64,000 bases of DNA from Perkinsus chesapeaki. Lineage: Eukaryota > Perkinsozoa > Perkinsida > Perkinsidae. The stretch spans positions 62,001 through 126,000 of the forward strand of contig JAAPAO010000017.1 in NCBI GenBank assembly GCA_013115145.1. Reading direction: 5' to 3'. Positions 9,490 to 48,758 of this stretch are shown one piece after another. The notes under the pieces are model-generated. The model did no database searches. It had not been told where the DNA came from and was given only the letters and a program-made list of their open reading frames with translations. The translations under genes and the position numbers were made by a program. Every line of letters starts with the position of its first letter. The first letter of the stretch is position 1.

Positions 9490-10246
9490 GTGGGGATCCT
9501 GGAACGGTGCTGCTGCTGGTGGGCTATCATATTCATTATTTAAATTTAAAGTAATGGATACTGTTAAGTTATCTGGGCTTAGTGATAGGGAGGCCAGAAG
9601 GTACCTGTTGCGGTGCTTGAAGGGGCCAATTAGGCAGCAACAGGTTAAAAAGTGGGTTAAAGGAGGGCTACCATTCAGCACTATAATGGCCTGCTTGGAC
9701 AAGCAGTTCCTTCGGGAACGTAGAGGCTTTGGGGTTTTTGATGAGTGGAGGGAAATTCACCAGGAGGAAGGGGAGAGCCCTGAGCACTTTATCCCGGATA
9801 TATATCTTTATCCCCTTATTTATTTAAGGGGAGGATATCGGCCTATGTCAGGGCGATTAAACAGGAACTTCACTTTGAGATACAGCCACCGGAGCAGGGC
9901 TTCCGGTTCCTGGAGGGGTTCGTCCGACCGATACGCTTCAAGCTTTCGCTGGACTTCATGAGAACTACTAACCCGACGATAGACGTTATTATGCCCAAGG
10001 CGTCGTATTATTGGAATTTGGAGAGGAGGAGGGAGATTGACCCCACCAGGATGCCCTGCAACTTTTATGCCGACGAGCACAAGTGTCGGTTTGGAGTTAA
10101 CTGTCGGTTTAGGCACATCGACAGTATCTGGTGATCATTGCTGACACACCGGAATAAGATTGTATCAACCCTTTTCGCGCTCATGTGGTTGGTGGTTGTT
10201 ATTGCGATGCTGAGTTAGCCAAGTGGCAGGTGTTGTTTCTTTGGCC

Positions 10247-11506
10247 ATGAGCCGCATTCGATTCGACTCGGACGATTGTTCTCCGTGGAGCGCCACGTTG
10301 ATTTTACGGCGAGAGGACATTAAGCCGTGGGGTGGTCCTACAGAGGAGATGTCTTATCAGGAATGGAAAAGCAAAATTGAGTTTGAGGTCAGGGACTCCT
10401 ATGGATTCCGCGGCCAGGAGATTCTCCGCCTCCTTAACTACCTGAAGGATCCTGTCTTCGGAGAGGTCTGTCGGTGGGCTGTTGAGGGCCTCACCATCCA
10501 GGACATATTCCAGCGGTTGGATGAGCGGTATGGGTATAGCGGGGGGCCTCGGGAGGCCTTTGAGAAATGGTCAACATTGAAGCAAAGACCGAAGGAGAGT
10601 CCTTTTACATTTGAGTATAGAGTAAGTTCACAGGCAAGGCTTATTAAAAGGGTTACTGGTAACGAACTGAGCGACGCCGAGATAGGTTACAAATATAGAA
10701 GCGGCCTCCTGCCGAACCTGAAGGAGTACGTGGATTACCATGTGGGGCCAGAATGTGGGAACATAGACGAGATTAGGGAATGGGTTATTAATTACTGGCA
10801 CATTTATCCCGATCAAACGCTTAATAAGTCACCGAGCCATGAAACAAAGGCAGGGGAAGAAGAGCCGGACACGGATACTGTCGAGGCGCTGCCGTTGTGT
10901 GTTGCACCGTGGAGTGGGAGGGATGATGGTATGCCGCATGAGATGTGGAAGATGATAGTGTCGGATACAATCAAGGTGTATGGGCTGAGGCCGTGGGAGG
11001 CCGATCAGTACATCAATCGTTGCCTCACTGGAAGAGCACTGCAGACAGCGAAGTCCTGGGGTGTTTACGGTGCTGATGAGAAGTTTGAGAAGCTGAAGGA
11101 GTGGCATGGCTCCTACCGGCAGTTTGGTGTCCATGAAAAGTGGTATCGAATGGCGGAGCGAGACGGGGAGAGCCCGGATACGTTTTATGGGAGGCTGATG
11201 GCCTATGTTCGAATGTTGAGGCATGAGCTGGGGGAGGACTTGCCGGACAAGGAGGTAGAGTTCAGGTTTAAACAGGGACTGAAGCCGGAAATAAGGGAAG
11301 AGCTCGATGAGTACTTTGCACGCTTTCCGGATGAGAATCCTCAGACTACCGAGAAGATGCTGGAGGTAGCATCGTTTTATTGGGAGCTTGCCAGGGGGAG
11401 AGCTGGCCATCAGGGAGGGAAGCGATGCCGGTTCTATTTCCAGCCTCAGAAGTGCCGGTTTGGGGACAACTGCCGATTCGAGCACCAGAGGAAGATTGGG
11501 GTCTGA
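10247..11506 (+). CDS. Gag-like protein: two capsid-like halves plus CCCH zinc finger
   Basis: A single uninterrupted frame of 419 residues; I chose ATG 10247 because the frame upstream opens with GTG only. Residues about 30-190 and 225-385 align with one another: each has a helical Retrotrans_gag-like pattern, with a motif of the type (E/R)-x-W-x-x-(L/M)-x-(Q/E)-(R/D)-x-x-E-S-P followed by F-x-x-R/G-L/V and an aromatic G-L-(L/K)-P segment. The C-terminus carries CRFYFQPQKCRFGDNCRFEH, an exact C-x8-C-x5-C-x3-H (CCCH) finger in the place where gag proteins usually have a CCHC knuckle. No reverse transcriptase, integrase or LTR was found nearby. It may be a gag-only element, a non-autonomous retroelement, or a domesticated capsid gene. 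The broken copy just upstream shows that the locus has been duplicated. Confidence 0.72.
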   Translation: MSRIRFDSDDCSPWSATLILRREDIKPWGGPTEEMSYQEWKSKIEFEVRDSYGFRGQEILRLLNYLKDPVFGEVCRWAVEGLTIQDIFQRLDERYGYSGGPREAFEKWSTLKQRPKESPFTFEYRVSSQARLIKRVTGNELSDAEIGYKYRSGLLPNLKEYVDYHVGPECGNIDEIREWVINYWHIYPDQTLNKSPSHETKAGEEEPDTDTVEALPLCVAPWSGRDDGMPHEMWKMIVSDTIKVYGLRPWEADQYINRCLTGRALQTAKSWGVYGADEKFEKLKEWHGSYRQFGVHEKWYRMAERDGESPDTFYGRLMAYVRMLRHELGEDLPDKEVEFRFKQGLKPEIREELDEYFARFPDENPQTTEKMLEVASFYWELARGRAGHQGGKRCRFYFQPQKCRFGDNCRFEHQRKIGV

Positions 11507-12246
11507 GGGGATATGTTTCCCCACAAAAAGGCCTCGGTCTAATTTATCTTTTTAGAAGGTTGCATTGTGTTTAGTAATCACCAGAGACCACTATGGGTAG
11601 CTTCAGTAGTGTCTTGTAGAAGGATACCTGTGACCTGGGGCAATTTAGCTGTTATCCTTTACTGTGGGCCTAGCGTATAGCCTATCGTATAGGCCTTCAG
11701 GTCGAGGTAATCGAGACCGGATTGTTGCACCCTGTTGTAGAAGATAGTAGCGAGGGACGAGGGACGATATGGGCGGATGTCTCTCGTCGAATAACGTGTC
11801 TACGGTTACAGAGCTGCTGGCTGCAATTAGAACATTTTTCGTTTGTGAATTTTTAATAAGAGTGAGAGCTCAGGTCTCCATGGAGGGTTTAACGGGCGCG
11901 CAGTGGCGGCGGAGGAAGTACCAGGAAAGCTACTTTTCGGGAATGCAACCTTAAACTCTGTCAAGACACACACTTGCGGTTGAATGTTCGAACCATGCGC
12001 CATGGTGGCGCTGGGGAAGTTAGGGCTGCTTAGCGAGGAGGAAGGAAGTGTTGTGTCTGATGTTGAAGCTGAGTTGTAGAGGAAATGTTTGATAGTGTGT
12101 AGCTCTTGACAAATGACAAGTTGGATGTCGTAGTGTTGTGTTGTTCATTTCGGGTGGGGGTAGATGAGCCATATTGAGCACTCAAAGGGGGGGCCTGCTG
12201 CAGTGTTTTGGCCTCCGTGGCTTAGTGAGGCTTCCTTTTGGTAACT
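11507..12246. other. Intergenic, no gene seen
   Basis: About 740 nt between the gag-like gene and topoisomerase. A small frame at 11769-11954 has no family resemblance. No LTR or target-site duplication could be recognised. Confidence 0.35.
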
Positions 12247-15200
12247 ATGGTGAAGGAGGAGAAGAAAGTGAAGAAGGAAAAAAAAGATAAGAAAGTTAAA
12301 AAAGAGAAAAAAGAGAAAAAAGACAAGAAGGAGAAGAAGGACAAGAAAGAGAAGAAGTCCAAGACCACAGCCACCAGCAGTAGCCGGCCAGGTACCAAGG
12401 CCCCTGCTGCACGGAAACCGAGGGCAAAGAAGGTAGTAAGGCCGCTGCTGAGGTACCAAACTTGTACCTGGCAAGGGGGATCATGTACGGCCATTACGGT
12501 CATGGTTGTAGCCCTGGTTAGGCCGTGATGGCGAACTTGGGAGTGGATAAGGCTGTTATGGAATCACATACCGACTTCTATCATTTTAGGGGTGAAACGG
12601 AGCTAGTATAGTAGTGCGTGAAGTATCTTATTTACTGTAACCCTAGAGCGTTTACACATCCACATTTATGTGTTGATGGGCACTGTGGAGCAGTCTGGTG
12701 TGTTAGGAAGGAGATGCTAAGTCGGCAACTGGTGGTAGGAAACGGAAGGCAATAGTGAGGACTGAGGAGGACTTTGAGCCCTTTAATAGATGGTGGGAAA
12801 AGGATCCCGAGGTACTACTGAGGAAGGGGGCGTTCGCCTTGGACGTGATGATATTGGAGGTAGTGGAACTATAACAGCAGGAAGTAGTATAGTATCTTTT
12901 ACTATTGTAGTTGTGGTTGAACATCTATAGTGTTGTTTCTATAGGATACCGATAAGAAGTGGAACTATCTAGAGCATCACGGTATGATGTTCACCCCACC
13001 CTACGAGGCTCATGGTGTGAAGATGCTGTAGGAGTGTAGTGGGGGAGCTGGGTGGCAATCCCTGTATGACAGGTATAATGGTGAACCAGTAGATCTACCA
13101 CCAGAGGCAGAGGAGGTCGCAACGTTCTTCGCTCAAACCTTAGGTGAGATGCTGTTGGTCACTATACGGGTATAAGTTTCTTTATGAGTGAAGGCCTCTG
13201 TTCTCTTCTGTCTAGGCCTCTATTTTGTTGGTTGTAGTCTACAACTGGGAGAGTGGCCCCATAGACAGCTCTAAAAAGGCAAAATGGAATTTAGCTTCTA
13301 GTAGACATAACCATCTAACATTATAGAACTTGTCACTTAAACCACCGGCCTTGGTGTCTAGTGCACCAGATGATATAACCATTTGTACGTCTTTAATCCC
13401 GAGGACCGATGCTTCGATTATACGGCCGCATAATTAGTGGTACGTACTGTGTCCCAGTCTGTGTGGTAGATTGTACTAGGTAATAGAGATACCCTACAGA
13501 TGTAGCGTTATCGGAACCGGGAAAGGTCAAAACACCTTCCGAATTATACGAGGATATGTGTGAATGAACTCCCTCTATGCGACACCATAATTTCCGCCAT
13601 AAACGGTTTCCATAGCTCTGTCAACTTCTCGACGCGCGAAGATAGTATTTTGACTTTGCCTGATGTCCTTTCATGACATTCGAGGAAGGGTGGTTTGATT
13701 GGGTCGCCTCAGGGACGGACTGGTGCCAAAAGGAGAAATTCCAGGACAACTTCTGGACAGATTTCCAGACTAAACTGCCCACGGAATTGAAGTCCAAGAT
13801 AAAGGATTTTAAGAAGTAAGTCGTGGGTTCGATCCCTGGGGAGGGTATTTTATTCAGATGTGATTTCGAGCCAATCAAGAACTTCTTGGATAAACGTAGC
13901 GAAGCTAAGAAGGCTCGGACTAAGGAGGAGAAGGAGGCAGAAAAGGAGAAGAAGCAACGGGAGGATCATCCCTATACCCATGTTATAGTGGACGATCTGA
14001 GGGAAAGGTAAACCCATGGACAGACGGCGATACTGGACGCTGCCAGAGAAGGAACTTATTCTGGTGTGGGTGTTCGTAATGTTACAGTACGAATTAGTAA
14101 TTCTCGAAGGTTATAAGAATTTGAGTGGCTGGTATGGGTTCGAGTAGTTTAGACGTCGTTGTGGAGTCGTTGATTATGTGAGTTGAGAATATAATTAATA
14201 GGATATATTATACCGGCATTCCAGCTGCTCCTGCTCCTGCTCCTGCTGCTGCTTCCATGGTATCTCAAATGGTATGGTATACAGTACGGGTATTAGTAGT
14301 CTGTTGAAGATAGGCTTGGTGATGGTGCGGATCAATTCGTGTCTTGTGATAACTTAACACTCGGTGGTGGTGGTAAATTTTGATGAACGTCAACGGGAAG
14401 AATTGTGGAAATCGATTCGATGACAATTTGTGGGAAAATCTGCTCTAGGCAAGGCTTTGTTTCGTTGTTTAGAGTTGGCAACTTCCGTGTGGAGCCACCT
14501 AATCTCTTCCGAGGTCGAGGAGACCATCCCAAGATGGGCAAGCTGAAGCAGTACATTATGCCAGAGGATGTCACCGTCAATTGTGCAGCTGACGCTCCGG
14601 CGCCGAGAGTAGACTTGGTAGCGAATATGTGAGTGTCATGCCCTCGCTCATGCTCAGTGCCCAGTGCCGGGCCATGCCTACCGCGACGTTGTGCACGACC
14701 CTGCTGTTACATGGCTGGCGTGGTTCACTGATACTATCAATAATCAATTCAAGTAAGAAACGGTAAGATATTCTTTATAGTGCGATTGATCGATGAAGAT
14801 ACGTATTCTTAAACGCTGCGAGTGGATTCAAGGGACAAAGTGATTGGCTGAAATACGAGAAGGCACGGAAACTAAAGAAGTGAAATAATAAATGGTGGGG
14901 TTAGTGTGTTGGAAGGCACGGTTGTTGCTGGCAGGTATATTGGAGGTATTAGAGCTGATTATACGAAGAAGATGAAGTCAAGTGATAACGATGAGAAGCA
15001 GCTTGGTACGGCAGTGTACCTTATTGATAGGCTGGCATTGAGGGTAAGGAAGAGGTCGTCAGGAATAACACCTCCAAATGGGATCATTCGCTACCGTAGA
15101 TCGACTTAACTCGGTTGAGCTCGGTGTTGCGGTAATTGGTCGGTAAGCCTGGCTTAACTATTCATATCTATTAAGGGGAATCCTGTTAGTGGCATACTGC

Positions 15201-16922
15201 TGCTGTTCAGGTTGGTAATGAGAAGAACACTGACGAGGAGGCGGATACTGTGGGCTGCTGTAAGGAATCTCTAATGCCTGCTTTCAACACAATTTACCAT
15301 CTCAGGCAGCCTGCGAGTAGAGCACATGACATTCGAGCCTGATAATCAAATCACACTCGATTTCCTCGGCAAGGATTCCATCCGCTATTTCAATACTGTC
15401 CCCGTTGATGCGTAGGATTGGCTGGGAGGAGCGGCGAACTGTTATTGCCTATGCCAGACTGGTTTATAAAAATCTGAAGTCGCTCACTAAGGGACGGAAG
15501 CCGGATGAGATGATATTCTCCATGGATCCCTCCAAGGTCAATGAGTACTTCAAGCAGTTTATGTCGGATCTCTCAGCGAAGGTTGGCAGGTTGATTCCCA
15601 TCTGCCCTCGACCGTTGATGTTTCAGGTCTTTCGTACCTATAATGCCTCGATTACGCTGGAGCAAGAACTGTGTAAGTAGACAGTTAAAAGGCTTCCTGG
15701 TTATCGAGCCGTGTATATATTTTACTTGGCACGTTGATTATTCAGTAACCGTATGTACTTGCTCGTATCCTATAGTTACATATACAGCCCCTCACAATGA
15801 AATAGAATATTTCGTACTTTCAGTTCTCACTCAATCTTCAGTGTTGTAGCTTGAAATTCTAAGCAAGAGCAGTAGAATGAGAATCGAAACCGTGACACCA
15901 ACGTTGTTGCATTCGATCATTTACTAGTTACTGCTATTATCTACTAACATGCTTCCTATTGCTCGACGGTATACAGTGGAATCGGGTGGTATGTTAGTGT
16001 GGTCAGTGGTGTCTGCAGCAACTCGGTTTGTGTCATAACCACGGTTCGGCAACAACATAAGATGCGCTGTACTAGGTTAAGCGCTGCCGTGGTGTCGGTT
16101 ATTCTAGTTTGAAATATCTCACCATACAGAGAAATCTATGCGTCTACCAATAGGCATGTCTCAGGCAAGTTTGATCCGAATGAGCATGATATTAGTGACC
16201 CTAGTGAGCTGGTGAAGTTCTATAACGATGCCAATAGAAGAGTCGCCATTTTGTGTAACCATCAGGTGAGCCACTATTACTTATATGCTGCACACTTGTC
16301 TGCTATTTAGAGAGCTCCACCGAAGCAACATGAGGCAGGAATGGAGAGGCTCAAAAAGAAGCTTAGCGATCAGGAGGTCGCTCGCCATACCGAATTCTTC
16401 TCTAATCGTGCCCGTCTTTATTAGGCAGTCCTACGGGGCCTGGAAGGTCTACGGGACGAAGAGCTTGGCAAGAGCGTCTCGAAGACAGTAAGCATCCCGT
16501 AGGAGCGTTGAGAAGAATGCCTGCCCGTTCAGGTTAAAGATATCATTGCCGAGAAGAATCTTAAGTTCTCCAACATGGACGCGTTAGTTCGGAAGATTAA
16601 ATCTCAGACTTTAGCAGGTAGGAATGCATTTCGGGCGATGCTGAGGTGAAGCTGTCGCTTTAGTGGAGCGAACTAAGATTCAAATAGCGGACAAAGAAGA
16701 CAATAAAACCGTGTCACTGACTACCTCCAAGATCAACTATATGGACCCCAGGATATCTGTTGCCTTCTGCAAGTCCCTCGACTGCCCAATAGAGAAGGTG
16801 GGTCGACTAGTAAGAGAAAGAGCCTCTGTTGGATATTCGGCTTCGGTCTTCAGATATTTGCGAAGACTATTCGGAACAAGTTCCCATGGGCGATGCACAC
16901 AAAGAGCTCGTGGAGGTTTTAG
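12247..16922 (+). CDS. TOP1: DNA topoisomerase IB (eukaryotic topoisomerase I)
   Basis: Relaxes supercoils by transient single-strand cleavage in the nucleus. Twenty exons were placed (12247-12432, 12707-12811, 12945-13027, 13073-13143, 13713-13815, 13858-14007, 14473-14617, 14658-14752, 14799-14879, 14935-15043, 15211-15259, 15306-15411, 15458-15581, 15627-15670, 16130-16265, 16311-16376, 16425-16487, 16533-16617, 16664-16797, 16854-16922): 2004 nt, 667 residues, all phases consistent. A Lys/Glu-rich N-terminus is followed by the core ([27 protein letters not shown]). All five catalytic residues are visible: Arg in LALRVGNEK, Lys in FLGKDSIRY, Arg in VFRTYNAS, His in CNHQRAPP and the nucleophilic Tyr in KINYMDPR. 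It ends [13 protein letters not shown]. Introns range from 40 to 569 nt, most 40-56. The end of exon 1 is the least certain junction, because its frame stays open past the chosen donor. Confidence 0.95.
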
Positions 16923-17203
16923 ACAGTTGTTACGTGTCGTCGGAGATTACCATTGTTCTACTTCGCGGTCCGTTCTGCAAGCACTGCCCCATTGGTTTCT
17001 GACACCTCTAGCTGTGCAAGTCTATTGCTAACGTAAAACATTATGTGTTGTGTTGTTGCTTATATTACTAACGGGGACAATTCGTTGGTCTCGTGATGGC
17101 GCGGAACCGTGACGCATCCCATCCGATGTTTTGCGTGCTGGGGCGAGCCCGGGGGCTTCCGACTACATTCATACTTTTAGTAGTCGACTTTTTCCTGACG
17201 GAC

Positions 17204-19688
17204 ATGACCAGGGACAGACAGCCTGAACCCCTGAAACTGTCCGACCTTCGATCGGATCTTATTCGCCAAGAGGAGACTATCATTTTTGCTCTGATAGAAA
17301 GAGCCCAGTTCAAGCAGGTAGGGTGCGCCCTAACCACTCCACAGAGCTATTACCTTTCAGAATCTGTCGAACTATTCCCTATGTAACCAGATTGGTACAT
17401 GCTCCAAGCTGGACTATTTCCTTACAGAGACCGAGAAGCTCCATTCTAGGTTCAGGAGATATGAGATGTTAGAAGAGCCCTTCACTAACCCCAAATTCGT
17501 ATGTTTCATGCCACATTGCCGCCTGAGCCTCGAGCCTTTGCATATTCAGCTTCCCGCGCCCTTTTTCTCCGAAGCCCACGATGGTCCCCAAAGGATCGTC
17601 CCCAACACCATTAACGCCAATAGTCGGCTGAAATCGTAGGATTCTGAGAGTAGGTCTCGGTAACCAACTGTAGGTTCTACGTTAAGAATGTCATACCATT
17701 GATATGTCGGCCTGGAGAGGAGGAGGTGTCAGCGGCCTTGGGTACTCAACATTACTGTGTGCTGCTGTTGGGTGCAGCTGTCTCGGCTGAATAGGTGCAT
17801 CGGTGGTTAGGGATGTGACAGCACTACAGGCTATGAGTAGAAGGATACACTATGGCAAACTGGTTGCTGAGGCCAAATTTCAGGCTAATACTCCACTGTA
17901 GGCAGTTCCCGCTCATGTCCTTCCGACAGTGTGAGGATGATAAGGCCCCCTGTCGACTATTCAATAATATCTTTTCCTGGTCCATAGTAGCTCTAATGGC
18001 TCTTCGGTGAGGCTTCCATATTCGTACCACTAGCGATCACCTCCAACTTCAATGCGAATGATGGTGTCCAAGCGAAGTCTGTTTCTTTAGATACTCTCAG
18101 TTGATTCGGGCGCAGGACGCTGACGGTCTCATGGATTTGCTCACGGACTCCGCCGTCGAAGAGAAGCTCCTGCAGAGAGTTCGCGAAAAAGCCCGGGCCT
18201 ACGGCAGGGATATCCAGAACGGTAAGCTACTGGCTGGTGCTGGAAGGTATGGCTCTCAGGTGGGTCTGAGGTTGTAGTCGACGATTCTGCGCTGAAGGTA
18301 GATCCTGAGAATGTCGTCCTTGCTTACAGAGAGCTCATGATACCCCTCACTAAGGAGGTCCAGGTTGGTTCGAGGTATCTTTGCGCATCCGGAAGAATTC
18401 GATCCTGCAGGTCGCCTACCTCCTTCGACGTCTAGATTCTTTGGTCATTGCAGTGACCGCTGGATGGGGAAGAGTGGCAGCTATGGAGTACACCATGGGA
18501 GACAGGGGGAGCATCAGTCCGCATGCCTCCGGTCGTGATGCCAGTGCCGCTGAGCTCAAAGTCCACGAGTAGGAGGCCAGTGGAAGCTTCTTCGGTGTAA
18601 TCCTTTTCAGCTCGGTGAAGAGCGTTTTTGATGATGTTGCTAGCGGCGCCGTTAGCTTCGGTGTGGTCCCCCTAGACAGCAGTGTTACAGGTACGCAGAC
18701 GTTCAGTTCCGGAGGGGTCATATCATTTCAATGCAGGTGTCGAAATTCGGACGTTGGAAGCTTTGATGGATAGTCATAGGCAGAATGGAGCCAACCTGGT
18801 TATTAGCGACCAGCTGTCGCTGCGCCCCAGGTGCGAAAACCATGGCAAGTTGTCGCGTGGTTAGTTGGCTGGTCAGTTACGCTGTTATATCCCATCCAAA
18901 TGGAGGCAAGCCTGTACCTCTAACAAGAGCATCTGTGGTTATAACTACTAGCATGGCTTCTGAATACTGTAGAGCTGAAATCACTGCGGTGCCGGGCATC
19001 AAGACCAGACTGGTAGACTGCTACTTTGAAGCAGTTGAGAAGGTACCACAATTCCTGCTACTGACAGCAAGGCCCTCTCCCTCCTCAGCTCATAGAGGCT
19101 TTAAAGGACGACAAGAAGGCTGTGGCTATTATCCCGACACCTTACCTATATAAAATGATGGAGATGTATGGCCACGAGTTCAAGTCGATCATCATACCCA
19201 ATTCGGACCTTGGCAACATTAAGCTTCAGTAGATCACGCTTTTCGCCCCAACAAACAGAACAGTTCTCTCAGATTCGGTATCCTCCGTCGTCCACTGGCA
19301 TATGGCCCCGCAACTGGCTCGGACCGCACTCTCATTGCTTTCAATGTCGATCACAGCCATGGTTCCCTGATGACCGCCTTGGACTGCTTTAGAGTATCAC
19401 AAGTCAATCTGTCAAGTCTTCACTCATTCCCCGCTAGTAAGATCCCCTCCCGATTAGCCGCTCCAGTCGCCTACCCTCAGGCTCTGGCTTTGATTTCGTT
19501 GCCATCGCTGATGGTCATCCTGATGCCGAGGAAACTAGACATGCCGTCGAGCTTTTGATGGGTGCCAGAACTGCTGCGGGCACTAAACCGAACTGGGCTA
19601 AAGTAAAGTCGCTTCGTGCGCGTGCGTGCAGTCGTTCTTGCATTCGCAGGTGCTGGGCTGCTTCCATGTCCCGGAGGAGGACCGATGA
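17204..19688 (+). CDS. Chorismate mutase fused to prephenate-dehydratase-like and ACT domains
   Basis: The first ~270 residues are an Aro7/AroQ-type chorismate mutase: LSDLRSDLIRQEETIIFALIER at the start, SRRIHYGKLVAEAKF (catalytic Arg and Lys of yeast Arg157/Lys168), DSAVEEKLLQRVREKA and IPLTKEVQVAYLLRRLDS at the end. The exon encoding that last helix reads straight on into a prephenate-dehydratase-like domain (MGDRGSISPHAS, then FGVVPLDSSVTG, then IIPTPYLYKMMEMYG) and an ACT domain (TLIAFNVDHSHGSLMTALDCF, VNLSSLHSFP), ending AKVLGCFHVPEEDR. The PDT active-site TRF motif reads LQF, PIENS reads PLDSS, and the ACT ESRP reads HSFP, so dehydratase activity is doubtful. ATG 17204 is chosen; an in-frame ATG at 17096 would add 36 residues with a hydrophobic stretch, perhaps targeting. 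One junction near 17760 fits only with a GC donor. Confidence 0.87.
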
Positions 19689-35564: not shown

Positions 35565-36677
35565 CTAAGGACCGGGCTTTAGCTTGGCAACACCCAGTCT
35601 GTTATCGACCGGTTGAAACTCAATATAGTTACCGACAAGTGCACCAGCAGGAAGTTGCCAAGTGTAACCCTCCAGAGGCATGATCATAACAGTGCAGGGC
35701 TGAGCTCCTACAAACTTTCTCACATAACCTTGAGATGAGATTTCCAAAGGGACATCCCCGTCTGGTCCGAGATAAAAGGTTAATGATGGCAGATACTTCC
35801 TTAAGGGGCAGTCCACTATGTAACTATTTCTTTTTCCATCAAATACGATATCTACTTTCTGGCCACGGATGTTGGAGGCCGCCCCAGCAAGCGCCTGTAC
35901 CAAGCCAGTGGAATATATGGATGGAATTCGAATGTAGTTGTCTCCAGTACGAATAGTGGCTCTCTGGTTGATCCCCAGAGTTGTTCTTCCTGCCTGTATG
36001 GACAGACTGCGTAGCTCTACAACGTAGTCATCAATACTTAGCAATGGTACATAACGTAATGGAATCACGTATTGTGTTGGATCCACTCCTCCCAGGATAA
36101 GTTTGCCACGGAATATATCAGATTCCTTAGTCGGTCTCAGAAAGAGAGTGAAAGTTGCCGTTTTCAATACCCTCTTGGACCTCAGCTGGTCCATTAGTGA
36201 AAACCCAGTTCCGTCGATGTCAGGTTTGAGACCAAGATAGTTAGCTGATGGGAACATCGGGGGAGGAGGGTCTTGGCCACCAATTAAACCAAAAGAGATA
36301 TCATCTGCACCAAATACGTTAGCGGAGTATTCGAATGCAAACAACTGAGTGTTGCGAACCTTGAATACTCTGGGGGGACCACGAGGGTCGGAGCAGGAGA
36401 AGCAAACGAACATGAAAGTTCGACACGCTCCCAGGCCTGTGAATAGTTCATACCACTCTTTCCAGACCAACAGAGTCGACGTCGAGCCGGTATCAACTAT
36501 AGCAACCATAGGTTGTTTATTCACACTCAAGGGACCATAGATAGCATAACCGGTTCGAGGGGATTCCCTATAGGTTATGCCCAATGACATGACCGTGCCC
36601 TCAGACTTGTTTGCCATCATGGCACAGATTAGGCATACCAGGATTAGTTTCATATATCCAAGCAGTTCGATGTACAT
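35565..36677 (-). CDS. Pepsin-fold aspartic-protease-like protein lacking second catalytic Asp
   Basis: One intronless frame of 370 residues. A signal peptide is likely (internal ATG at residue 9: MKLILVCLICAMMANKSEG). The first active-site loop is intact (AIVDTGSTSTLLVW), and the family pattern continues with ISFGLIGGQDPP, FSLMDQL and LILGGVD. The second loop, normally D-T/S-G-T/S, reads ATIRTGDNYIRIP, with Arg in place of Asp; the flap tyrosine motif YGTG/YGSG is also not seen. Two-lobed aspartic proteases need both aspartates, so this is probably a non-catalytic homologue, unless it pairs with another protein. A damaged relative lies at 47644-48758. Confidence 0.8.
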   Translation of the reverse strand: MYIELLGYMKLILVCLICAMMANKSEGTVMSLGITYRESPRTGYAIYGPLSVNKQPMVAIVDTGSTSTLLVWKEWYELFTGLGACRTFMFVCFSCSDPRGPPRVFKVRNTQLFAFEYSANVFGADDISFGLIGGQDPPPPMFPSANYLGLKPDIDGTGFSLMDQLRSKRVLKTATFTLFLRPTKESDIFRGKLILGGVDPTQYVIPLRYVPLLSIDDYVVELRSLSIQAGRTTLGINQRATIRTGDNYIRIPSIYSTGLVQALAGAASNIRGQKVDIVFDGKRNSYIVDCPLRKYLPSLTFYLGPDGDVPLEISSQGYVRKFVGAQPCTVMIMPLEGYTWQLPAGALVGNYIEFQPVDNRLGVAKLKPGP

Positions 36678-37145
36678 GTATTAAACGACTCCGATATTCC
36701 TTTTGTCGCGTTTCGTTCTACGTCACCGACATGTGACTCCTGATCGTCCCCCTCACTCAATGGTTTCGGGTCGTCATTGAAAAACTTCAATGTAAATGTA
36801 TATCAGCGGCAAGGCGTAACAATTTCTCTCGGGTCCTTTGGTGAACTGGTGCTATTCATGGCGTTGGAGTACGAGAGATCGAAGAGAGCTGAGGAGAAAT
36901 TCATGCTACCATAATCGGCAAGCATGCTCTCTCCAGATTTGCGTGTTCAGTTAACATGAAGACAAATCGCGGTGGTCGTGAATGCCGTTGAGTAGTTTTG
37001 CGTGTGCTTCATCCTTCCGGTATTTTAGCAGTGATCTTATCCAGCCCACTATAAAACGCAAGCCTATGCAGCGAGCACCGAAACCGCTGATGAAACTGAT
37101 TGAGCGGCAGCACAACGTCAGTGTTTATCGTTCAAGCTGTTGCCA
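36678..37145. other. Intergenic, no gene seen
   Basis: Between the start of the aspartic-protease-like gene and the stop of the EGF-like membrane protein, both on the minus strand. A plus frame at 36982-37221 is only the complement of the latter's last exon and flank. Confidence 0.4.
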
Positions 37146-47643: not shown

Positions 47644-48758
47644 CTAGGGCTTTAGCTTGGCAATCCCCAATTTCATTTCGATCGGTTGGTATTCAATATA
47701 GTTACCGACAAGCGCACAAGCAGAAAGCTCCCAAGAGTCATCCGCGACCTCTGTGATCATAACAGTGCATAACCGGTCTCCAGCATACTTTCTTACATAA
47801 CCCTTAAACGAGATTTCCAAAGGAACGCCTCCATTTGGTCCGAGATTGAAGGTTAGTGTTGGCATAAATATCCTCGAAGAGCATTCCATCCGGTATACTT
47901 CTTCCTCTTCATCCCATTTGATATCGACCACCGACCCACGGATCGTAGAGGCAGCTGATGCGAGTTGCTTCGCCATAACAGCGAAATGCGGTTGTGGAAT
48001 CCCGATGTATTTGTCACCAGTATGAATAGTGGCTCTCTGGTTGATCCCCAGAGTTGTTTCTCCTGCCTGTATGGACAGACTGCGTAGCTCTACAACGTAG
48101 TCATCAATACTTAACAATAGTACATAACGTAATGGAATCACGTATTTTGTTGGATCCACTCCTCCCAGAATGAGATTACCAAAGAATACATCAGGTCGTC
48201 CAGTCGGTTTCAGAAAGAGAGTGAAAGTTGCCGTTCTCAATACCCTCCTGGATCTCAGCTGGTCCATTAGTGAAAACCCAGTTCCGTCGATGTCAGGTTT
48301 GAGACCAAGATAGTTAGCTGCTGGGGAAATAAGGGGAGGTGGGTCTTGGCCACCAATCAAACCGAAAGAGATCGGACCCACACCAAGAACTTAGCTTCGT
48401 ATTCAAATACCACCACATCAGCCTGGCCGACTTGGAAAGTCATTCTCGAACCATGAGGGCAAGGTTCGGGACAGGAGAAGCAGGGGAATATCGAAGTATC
48501 ACAGGCACCAGGGTGGGTTTCATTTTCGTACCACTCTTTCCAGACTAACAAAACTGACCTCAACTTGGTATCAACTATAGACCTCATTCTCCCCCCATTG
48601 ACGGCCATGCTACCATATATGCCGTACCCTTCTTCCGAAAGCTCTTTGTAAAATATATCGAGTGCGATACCTTTACTCTCGGACTCACTCATTGCCATGA
48701 GCCAGATGAGGCATATTAGCATTGGCTTCACATACGAGCAGCAGAATCGAGAAGTCAT
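47644..48758 (-). pseudogene. Damaged aspartic-protease-like paralogue
   Basis: Same family as 35565-36677: ISFGLIGGQDPP, LGLKPDIDGTGFSLMDQL and YVVELRSLSIQAG are shared almost residue for residue. Damage: the first active-site loop reads SIVDTKLRSVLLVW (DTG changed to DTK), the second ATIHTGDKYIGIP (Asp replaced by His), and near 48390 one base is missing, so EYEAK passes into the wrong frame and stops, while the rest continues in the next frame. A signal peptide is still visible (MLICLIWLMAMSESES). If the missing base is a sequencing error, the protein would be a second non-catalytic homologue, not a pseudogene. Confidence 0.78.

Follow-up and report, generated by a model that had tools for sequence, protein, structure and literature searches.

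Why should a chorismate mutase carry at its C-terminus a prephenate dehydratase (PDT) from which the catalytic motifs have disappeared? The question is raised by a single gene of the protist Perkinsus chesapeaki, of a genus related to oyster parasites, located at 17204-19688 (+ strand) of the window, that is, of the whole stretch of 64,000 nucleotides analysed here (assembly GCA_013115145.1, contig JAAPAO010000017.1, positions 62,001 to 126,000 of the forward strand). A preliminary description, made from the sequence alone, had proposed that the dehydratase has become a purely regulatory, effector-binding arm of the mutase. The answer towards which we also lean, on balance, is that a dead dehydratase has been retained as the regulatory arm of an active mutase.

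The coding region runs from an ATG at 17204 to a TGA at 19688, without internal stops, in 15 exons (17204-17317, 17361-17498, 17550-17635, 17674-17741, 17795-17897, 18091-18221, 18260-18363, 18411-18568, 18611-18690, 18737-18830, 18877-19042, 19089-19228, 19273-19436, 19481-19602 and 19650-19688) that encode 568 residues. The 14 introns are all GT-AG, 13 of them of 38-53 bp and the other one of 193 bp. With the acceptor of intron 6 at 18259, the translation is identical to P0001, present at NCBI as 'chorismate mutase aro7 [Perkinsus chesapeaki]', although P0001, being predicted from the same gene, cannot independently confirm the splicing. When the genome was searched with the fused mutase protein, the window locus was the sole match, with 12 exon matches. 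The end of the mutase and the start of the PDT share the exon 18411-18568, wherever the first PDT strand is placed, which bears out the earlier claim of a one-exon fusion (there with the exon at 18411-18570).

Within this chain, the Aro7-type (fungal/plant) chorismate mutase comprises residues 1-258 (17204-18440, exons 1-8), the degenerate PDT fold residues 259-470 (18441-19300) and the ACT domain residues 478-562 (19322-19667, spanning introns 13 and 14). Pfam scans of single exons are nearly blind and the spliced protein is required, which scores 249.6 bits with NCBIfam TIGR01802 (Aro7/plant chorismate mutase; curated cut-off 170.9), 33.8 bits with Pfam PF01817 (cut-off 27) and 34.2 bits with Pfam PF00800 (PDT; cut-off 25.2), and, by these scores, a chance match is excluded. 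The Pfam searches proposed at the outset gave a mixed outcome, since PF01842 (ACT) found no match to the fused protein at E 1, in spite of which the ACT fold is present in the predicted structure. The PDT part has the fold and belongs to the sequence family (PF00800), and it lies below the cut-offs of the NCBIfam PDT equivalogs (NF008865, 43.8 vs 219 bits; NF008866, 18.6 vs 359).

The first PDT strand is likely VIAVT (residues 260-264), which the AlphaFold model places immediately after the last mutase helix, although two alignments disagree on it. The strand named in the preliminary description, MGDRGSISPHAS, is favoured by one of these alignments, but it was set aside on the model and on the comparison within the genus: residues 279-292 (the GDRGSIS stretch) form a loop with a predicted local distance difference test (pLDDT) score below 50, and GDRGS is absent from the corresponding stretch of P. 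olseni and P. marinus, which makes that placement doubtful.

In the reading put forward here, the mutase itself would be active. Counted on the alignment, five of the seven positions to which we ascribe catalytic roles in the yeast enzyme are identical (R16, R157, K168, E198 and T242), and the other two are changed, N194 to Asp and E246 to Gln, the latter being the majority residue at this position in 47 aligned relatives (consensus TKEVQV). The near-invariant Ser 137 of the mutase is Ala in Perkinsus. We take this position to be part of the classic mutase effector site and, if it is, control of the mutase may have shifted to the tail in this genus.

Regarding the dehydratase, it is very likely that its activity has been lost from the fused protein, since other residues stand at the catalytic motifs, the Perkinsus species have these substitutions in common and an intact PDT is predicted from a separate gene. 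The substitutions reported earlier are confirmed, namely PLDSS for PIENS (18669-18683), LQF for the catalytic TRF (19224-19276) and, in the ACT domain, HSFP for ESRP (19421-19432), the Asn of the iNL motif and the Gly and Leu of the GAL motif (which reads GSL) being retained. To these, TTSM in the place of SHPQ (18944-18955) can be added. The LQF codons are split by intron 12 (19229-19272, 44 bp), and a different splice near 19227, restoring TRF, had been raised as an objection. It was looked for: the interval 19240-19300 contains three AG acceptors, none of which restores the motif. Of these, 19272 gives LQF, 19263 gives LHSLRF and 19258 loses the frame. KLQFGILRR is also found at this site in the P. 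olseni protein, a prediction from that species' own genome, and the replaced PDT motifs recur in all three species of the genus over the extent of their gene models.

Where, then, would prephenate be dehydrated? Searching the genome with PF00800 returned a single further locus, which lies on contig C246 (95.8 and 23.9 bits), to which the P. marinus protein P0132 aligns in ten stretches of 45-75% identity (10383-14428). The gene (G000:C246, approximately 10000-14430; L001-L003 and L012-L018) encodes a PDT-ACT-prephenate dehydrogenase (PDH)-aminotransferase, with three post-chorismate activities in a single chain. Its PDT motifs are intact (IENT, SHPQA, NRTRF across a GT-AG intron, and ESRP), and its relatives in P. 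marinus and P. olseni carry NHTRF. The end of this contig is AT-rich within a mid-GC genome: GC amounts to 23-32% in three stretches sampled there and to 34-49% in two further in, while three stretches of contig C79, for comparison, have 47-53%. Among the best 120 of 2262 matches of the joined query, the top score goes to full-length proteins (41% identity over 99%) and the highest local identity to incomplete Perkinsus models (58% over 35% and 51% over 49%). Given this local identity to Perkinsus proteins and the absence of a closer copy in the assembly, we take it that the gene probably belongs to Perkinsus rather than to a contaminant. Genome searches with the Pfam profiles CM_2 and PDH_C found nothing, but they also missed the window's own mutase, the short exons defeating the profile. 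As a separate observation, the codon before the Phe of (T)RF is split by an intron in the same phase in both genes (window 19229-19272; L003 4737-4814), which may reflect either chance or common ancestry.

The fusion, the motif losses, the second motif-intact PDT and the retention of the ACT domain can be read in the sequences themselves; the activity of the mutase, the loss of dehydratase activity and the regulation of the mutase by its PDT-ACT arm, together with the ligand and the direction of control, are what we infer. In the proposed mechanism, the C-terminal PDT-ACT module would no longer dehydrate prephenate, and dehydration, dehydrogenation and transamination would be left to the second protein, PDT-ACT-PDH-aminotransferase. 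The dead PDT fold would act as the link that couples the ACT domain to the mutase, and the ACT domain, most likely as an ACT dimer, would sense an aromatic amino acid (Phe or Tyr), the first committed step thereby responding to the end product. This would be the wiring of E. coli PheA with the dehydratase dead. In PheA, excess Phe cuts the mutase activity by 55% and that of the dehydratase by 85% (PMC10520331), so that the effect of an ACT domain can reach a mutase via a PDT.

Is this fusion an oddity of Perkinsus? Protein and alignment searches recovered it in Perkinsus, Chromera, Vitrella, many oomycetes, Amoebozoa (Balamuthia, Planoprotostelium and Arcella) and Diplonema, as well as in a transcript labelled EG_transcript, which we take to be from Euglena gracilis, and in numerous database entries without a species name. 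In public databases, the fused proteins are mostly annotated as chorismate mutase or hypothetical protein. The proteins considered are the best 120 of 479 and the best 120 of 796 matches of the fused searches, and the best 120 of 2262 for the PDT-PDH proteins, and do not amount to a census. Eighty-three fused proteins have tails of at least 170 residues, and after dropping P0058, P0041, P0083 and P0258, whose tails are unrecognisable as PDT-ACT, 79 were kept, from Alveolata, oomycetes, Amoebozoa and Euglenozoa among other sources, including the partial models P0003 and P0276. The PDT-PDH set leaves out two of the 120 listed, P0131, in which the dehydrogenase alone is present, and P0226, which lacks the motif; the other 118 were picked by the pattern [NS].TRF, so their TRF count is not independent. 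In both sets the rows are related and the motif counts do not represent independent events.

The alignment of orthologues over the TRF position, suggested in the preliminary description, gives the following counts. Both E-N (of PIENS) and TRF are kept in 8 of the 79 fused proteins, the two species-named ones among them (P0006 and P0060) being from amoebae, versus 104 of the 118 PDT-PDH proteins, where seven of the 14 failures have PIQN and the other seven lack or misread the region. Position by position, and with gaps excluded, the Arg of TRF is found in 72/79 fused proteins (118/118 in PDT-PDH) and the Glu of PIENS in 70/79 (105/113), versus 19/79 for the Thr of TRF (118/118), 13/79 for the Asn of PIENS (111/113) and 11/64 for the Gln of SHPQ (117/118). 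That is, the fused PDT often retains the Arg and the Glu and has mostly lost the Thr, the Asn and the Gln. In the ACT domain, the GAL motif is almost invariant (Gly 77/77, Leu 76/77), and the Ser of ESRP is kept in 74/76. Eight cases could be found, by eye and by name or label, in which both proteins are present: the three Perkinsus species, Phytophthora infestans (P0059/P0153), Nothophytophthora (P0064/P0144), Arcella (P0012/P0201), EG_transcript (P0045/P0167) and GHVL (P0044/P0232, by a shared accession prefix). TRF is present in the PDT-PDH partner of all eight pairs and absent from the fused partner of seven, the Arcella fused protein keeping TRF and having PIRNS. Degeneration of the PDT is, in these alignments, family-wide rather than a peculiarity of Perkinsus. 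As for novelty, which had also been claimed, the same fusion was already in the databases for many protists; on the other hand, neither a eukaryotic Aro7-PDT-ACT fusion nor a dead dehydratase on a mutase was found described in the titles and abstracts of the open-access papers listed, a scope outside which most subscription journals fall.

In some lineages the erosion goes further. In 14 of the 79 fused proteins the PDT has no second lobe, the gap beginning behind the lobe-1 strand and reaching as far as the TRF strand, with the ACT domain kept (P0007, P0009, P0011, P0018, P0031, P0036, P0039, P0040, P0043, P0045, P0066, P0074, P0078 and P0114). Five of them come from transcript sources (P0007, P0009, P0039, P0045 and P0066), and two, P0045 and P0066, also lack the last ACT strand. 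P0021, from Phytophthora palmivora, shows the same gap and was left out of the count, since its congeners keep the segment. The predicted fold of the Diplonema member consists of mutase, lobe 1 and ACT (mean pLDDT 86.8; predicted template modelling score 0.82). Apart from these, P0251 and P0253-P0255 (P0253 represents 38 sequences) end after lobe 1, without ACT; we suspect that they are reading frames cut at an intron, and they are excluded from the 79.

The simplest reading of the PDT-ACT tree and of the shared junction is a single old fusion event. In that tree (51 rows), 27 fused proteins lie on one side of a branch and 24 PDT-PDH proteins on the other, with a Shimodaira-Hasegawa-like approximate likelihood ratio test support of 100, in a quick search with a long-branch warning and without bacterial rows. 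The last mutase helix carries the motif YLLxR in 27 of 28 fused proteins inspected (it is missing in P0012), with strand 1 within a few residues, by eye. Both in the trees and in the conservation analysis below, the label "intact" is looser than the joint E-N and TRF test and includes P0012 and P0050, which fail it.

Several observations weigh against a regulatory role of the tail. Yeast and plant chorismate mutases carry an effector site of their own within the mutase (as the titles of the structures 4ppu and 2csm indicate), so that the PDT-ACT arm may be redundant, though Ser 137 is Ala in Perkinsus. The ESRP motif, for which ligand binding is on record, has changed: its Arg remains in 1/76 fused proteins (P0015) versus 118/118 in PDT-PDH, its Glu in 51/76 and its Pro in 26/76, and the Arg is also missing in six of the seven motif-intact fused rows in which the position is filled. 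With the Arg lost in 75/76, the ligand may be something other than Phe. Where the fused ACT keeps its Asn, PDT-PDH proteins mostly have Asp, which makes the role of this Asn uncertain. Perkinsus also retains lobe 2, which would be superfluous if the tail were no more than a tether for ACT. The P. marinus protein P0003 stops at KLQ, without ACT, precisely where intron 12 begins in P. chesapeaki, probably due to a gene-model error at the intron. Finally, the mutase tree (87 rows, thinned from 171), poorly resolved and with some possibly incomplete proteins among its "unfused" rows (which include P0251, P0253, P0054, P0089, P0252, P0256 and P0257), needs eight changes between fused and unfused, so that the tail would have been gained or lost several times; under a single fusion, tails would have been lost repeatedly.

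If not as a regulator, why would the tail have been kept? It might be a dead passenger since its work was taken over by the PDT-PDH-aminotransferase, its fold only stabilising or oligomerising the mutase, with no ligand-dependent control. This is unlikely, albeit with some points in its favour: the Perkinsus PDT lobes diverge faster than the mutase (P. chesapeaki vs P. olseni, 226/250 identical residues in the mutase, 68/87 in lobe 1, 75/105 in lobe 2 and 65/85 in ACT), and mutases without a tail exist, such as those of yeast (256 residues), Porphyridium and Ectocarpus. However, in the 53 degenerate full-length rows the mean column conservation of ACT (0.61) exceeds that of lobe 2 (0.47), with lobe 1 at 0.56 and the TRF strand at 0.44, whereas in the PDT-PDH rows the values are 0.64 for lobe 1, 0.66 for lobe 2, 0.68 for the TRF strand and 0.66 for ACT; and ACT is still retained where lobe 2 is deleted. 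Moreover, going by the identities within Perkinsus, the dead PDT-ACT part seems to be preserved about equally with its working cousin: P. olseni and P. marinus share 70/86 residues in lobe 1 and 86/105 in lobe 2 (ACT is missing from the P. marinus model), and their PDT-PDH-aminotransferases share 75/106 in the TRF-ACT stretch, 69/120 in a dehydrogenase stretch and 274/364 in the aminotransferase. Conserved ACT positions next to a catalytic lobe that is eroded, or deleted altogether, are the pattern that fits a regulatory arm.

It is improbable that the degenerate PDT clamshell is itself the sensor, holding a ligand (prephenate, arogenate or an amino acid) between the two lobes and reporting on it, with ACT as a second site; a fold match reveals no function, and the absence of lobe 2 from 14 of the 79 proteins rules this out as the general role. 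Still less probable is a tail that continues to act as a dehydratase, or that catalyses an altered reaction through other residues, considering that TRF, PIENS and SHPQ are all altered together in the P. chesapeaki protein and that a motif-intact PDT is present in the same genome. An artefact (two genes, or a mis-spliced intron 12) is scarcely credible, for while the gene model rests on sequence prediction and that of P. marinus breaks off at the same point, the fusion recurs with a similar junction in other species, partly in transcript sets (P0044 and P0053), and no acceptor tried brings TRF back.

The proposal of a regulatory arm, therefore, stands in part as first formulated: the loss of the dehydratase is strongly supported, and the family pattern fits a tail that would regulate the mutase, but ESRP is altered. 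Extended to distant protists (Perkinsus, chromerids, oomycetes and Euglenozoa), it would mean that the mutase at the Phe/Tyr branch point is controlled via a pseudoenzyme: a dehydratase fused long ago would have ceded catalysis to another protein and survived as a fold that couples the ACT sensor to the mutase, with a lobe trimmed in some lineages; for this broader version we consider the balance to be even. The model for the control of this branch in eukaryotes has been the chorismate mutases of yeast and plants, in which the effector is bound by the mutase itself. The fused proteins suggest that eukaryotes have another design, also widespread, that would keep a dead enzyme of the next step as a control arm. 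The living graded series of motif-intact, degenerate and half-deleted members offers a test of the route by which an enzyme domain turns into a regulator, and calling these proteins prephenate dehydratases from a domain match alone would be wrong.

Elsewhere in the window, upstream exons of a eukaryotic DNA topoisomerase I (PF01028, PF14370) lie at 16113-17028; a Gag-like frame of 430 residues with a terminal CCCH-type finger, at 10214-11506, resembles by eye a piece of a retroelement; and two similar frames on the - strand (35565-36680 and 47644-48390) resemble, also by eye, pepsin-type aspartic proteases.

How does this protein compare with known systems? It shares with the bacterial P-protein PheA (AroQ-alpha mutase-PDT-ACT), in which Phe lowers both activities (PMC10520331), the order mutase-PDT-ACT. 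Unlike PheA, it has a long mutase of the Aro7 type instead of a short AroQ-alpha one, it has lost the PDT motifs, and it is accompanied by a motif-intact PDT in a separate gene. Yeast Aro7 and plant CM1 end after the last mutase helix, to which the Perkinsus protein adds around 310 residues of PDT-ACT. The ACT-bearing prephenate dehydratases 3mwb, 6vh5 and 2qmx are 18-21% identical to it, with TRF, PIENS, SHPQ and ESRP replaced in Perkinsus. The PDT-ACT-PDH(-aminotransferase) fusions of protists contain a homologous PDT-ACT module and occur beside the fused mutase in the eight name-matched species or transcript sets, but they have no mutase part, and 118 of the 120 listed carry [NS].TRF. The architecture is the same, with a similar junction, in the Balamuthia-type fused Aro7-PDT-ACT (P0006), whose PDT motifs are nonetheless intact (VENS, SHPQ and TRF) and which scores 187.6 bits with PF00800, against 34.2 in P. 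chesapeaki.
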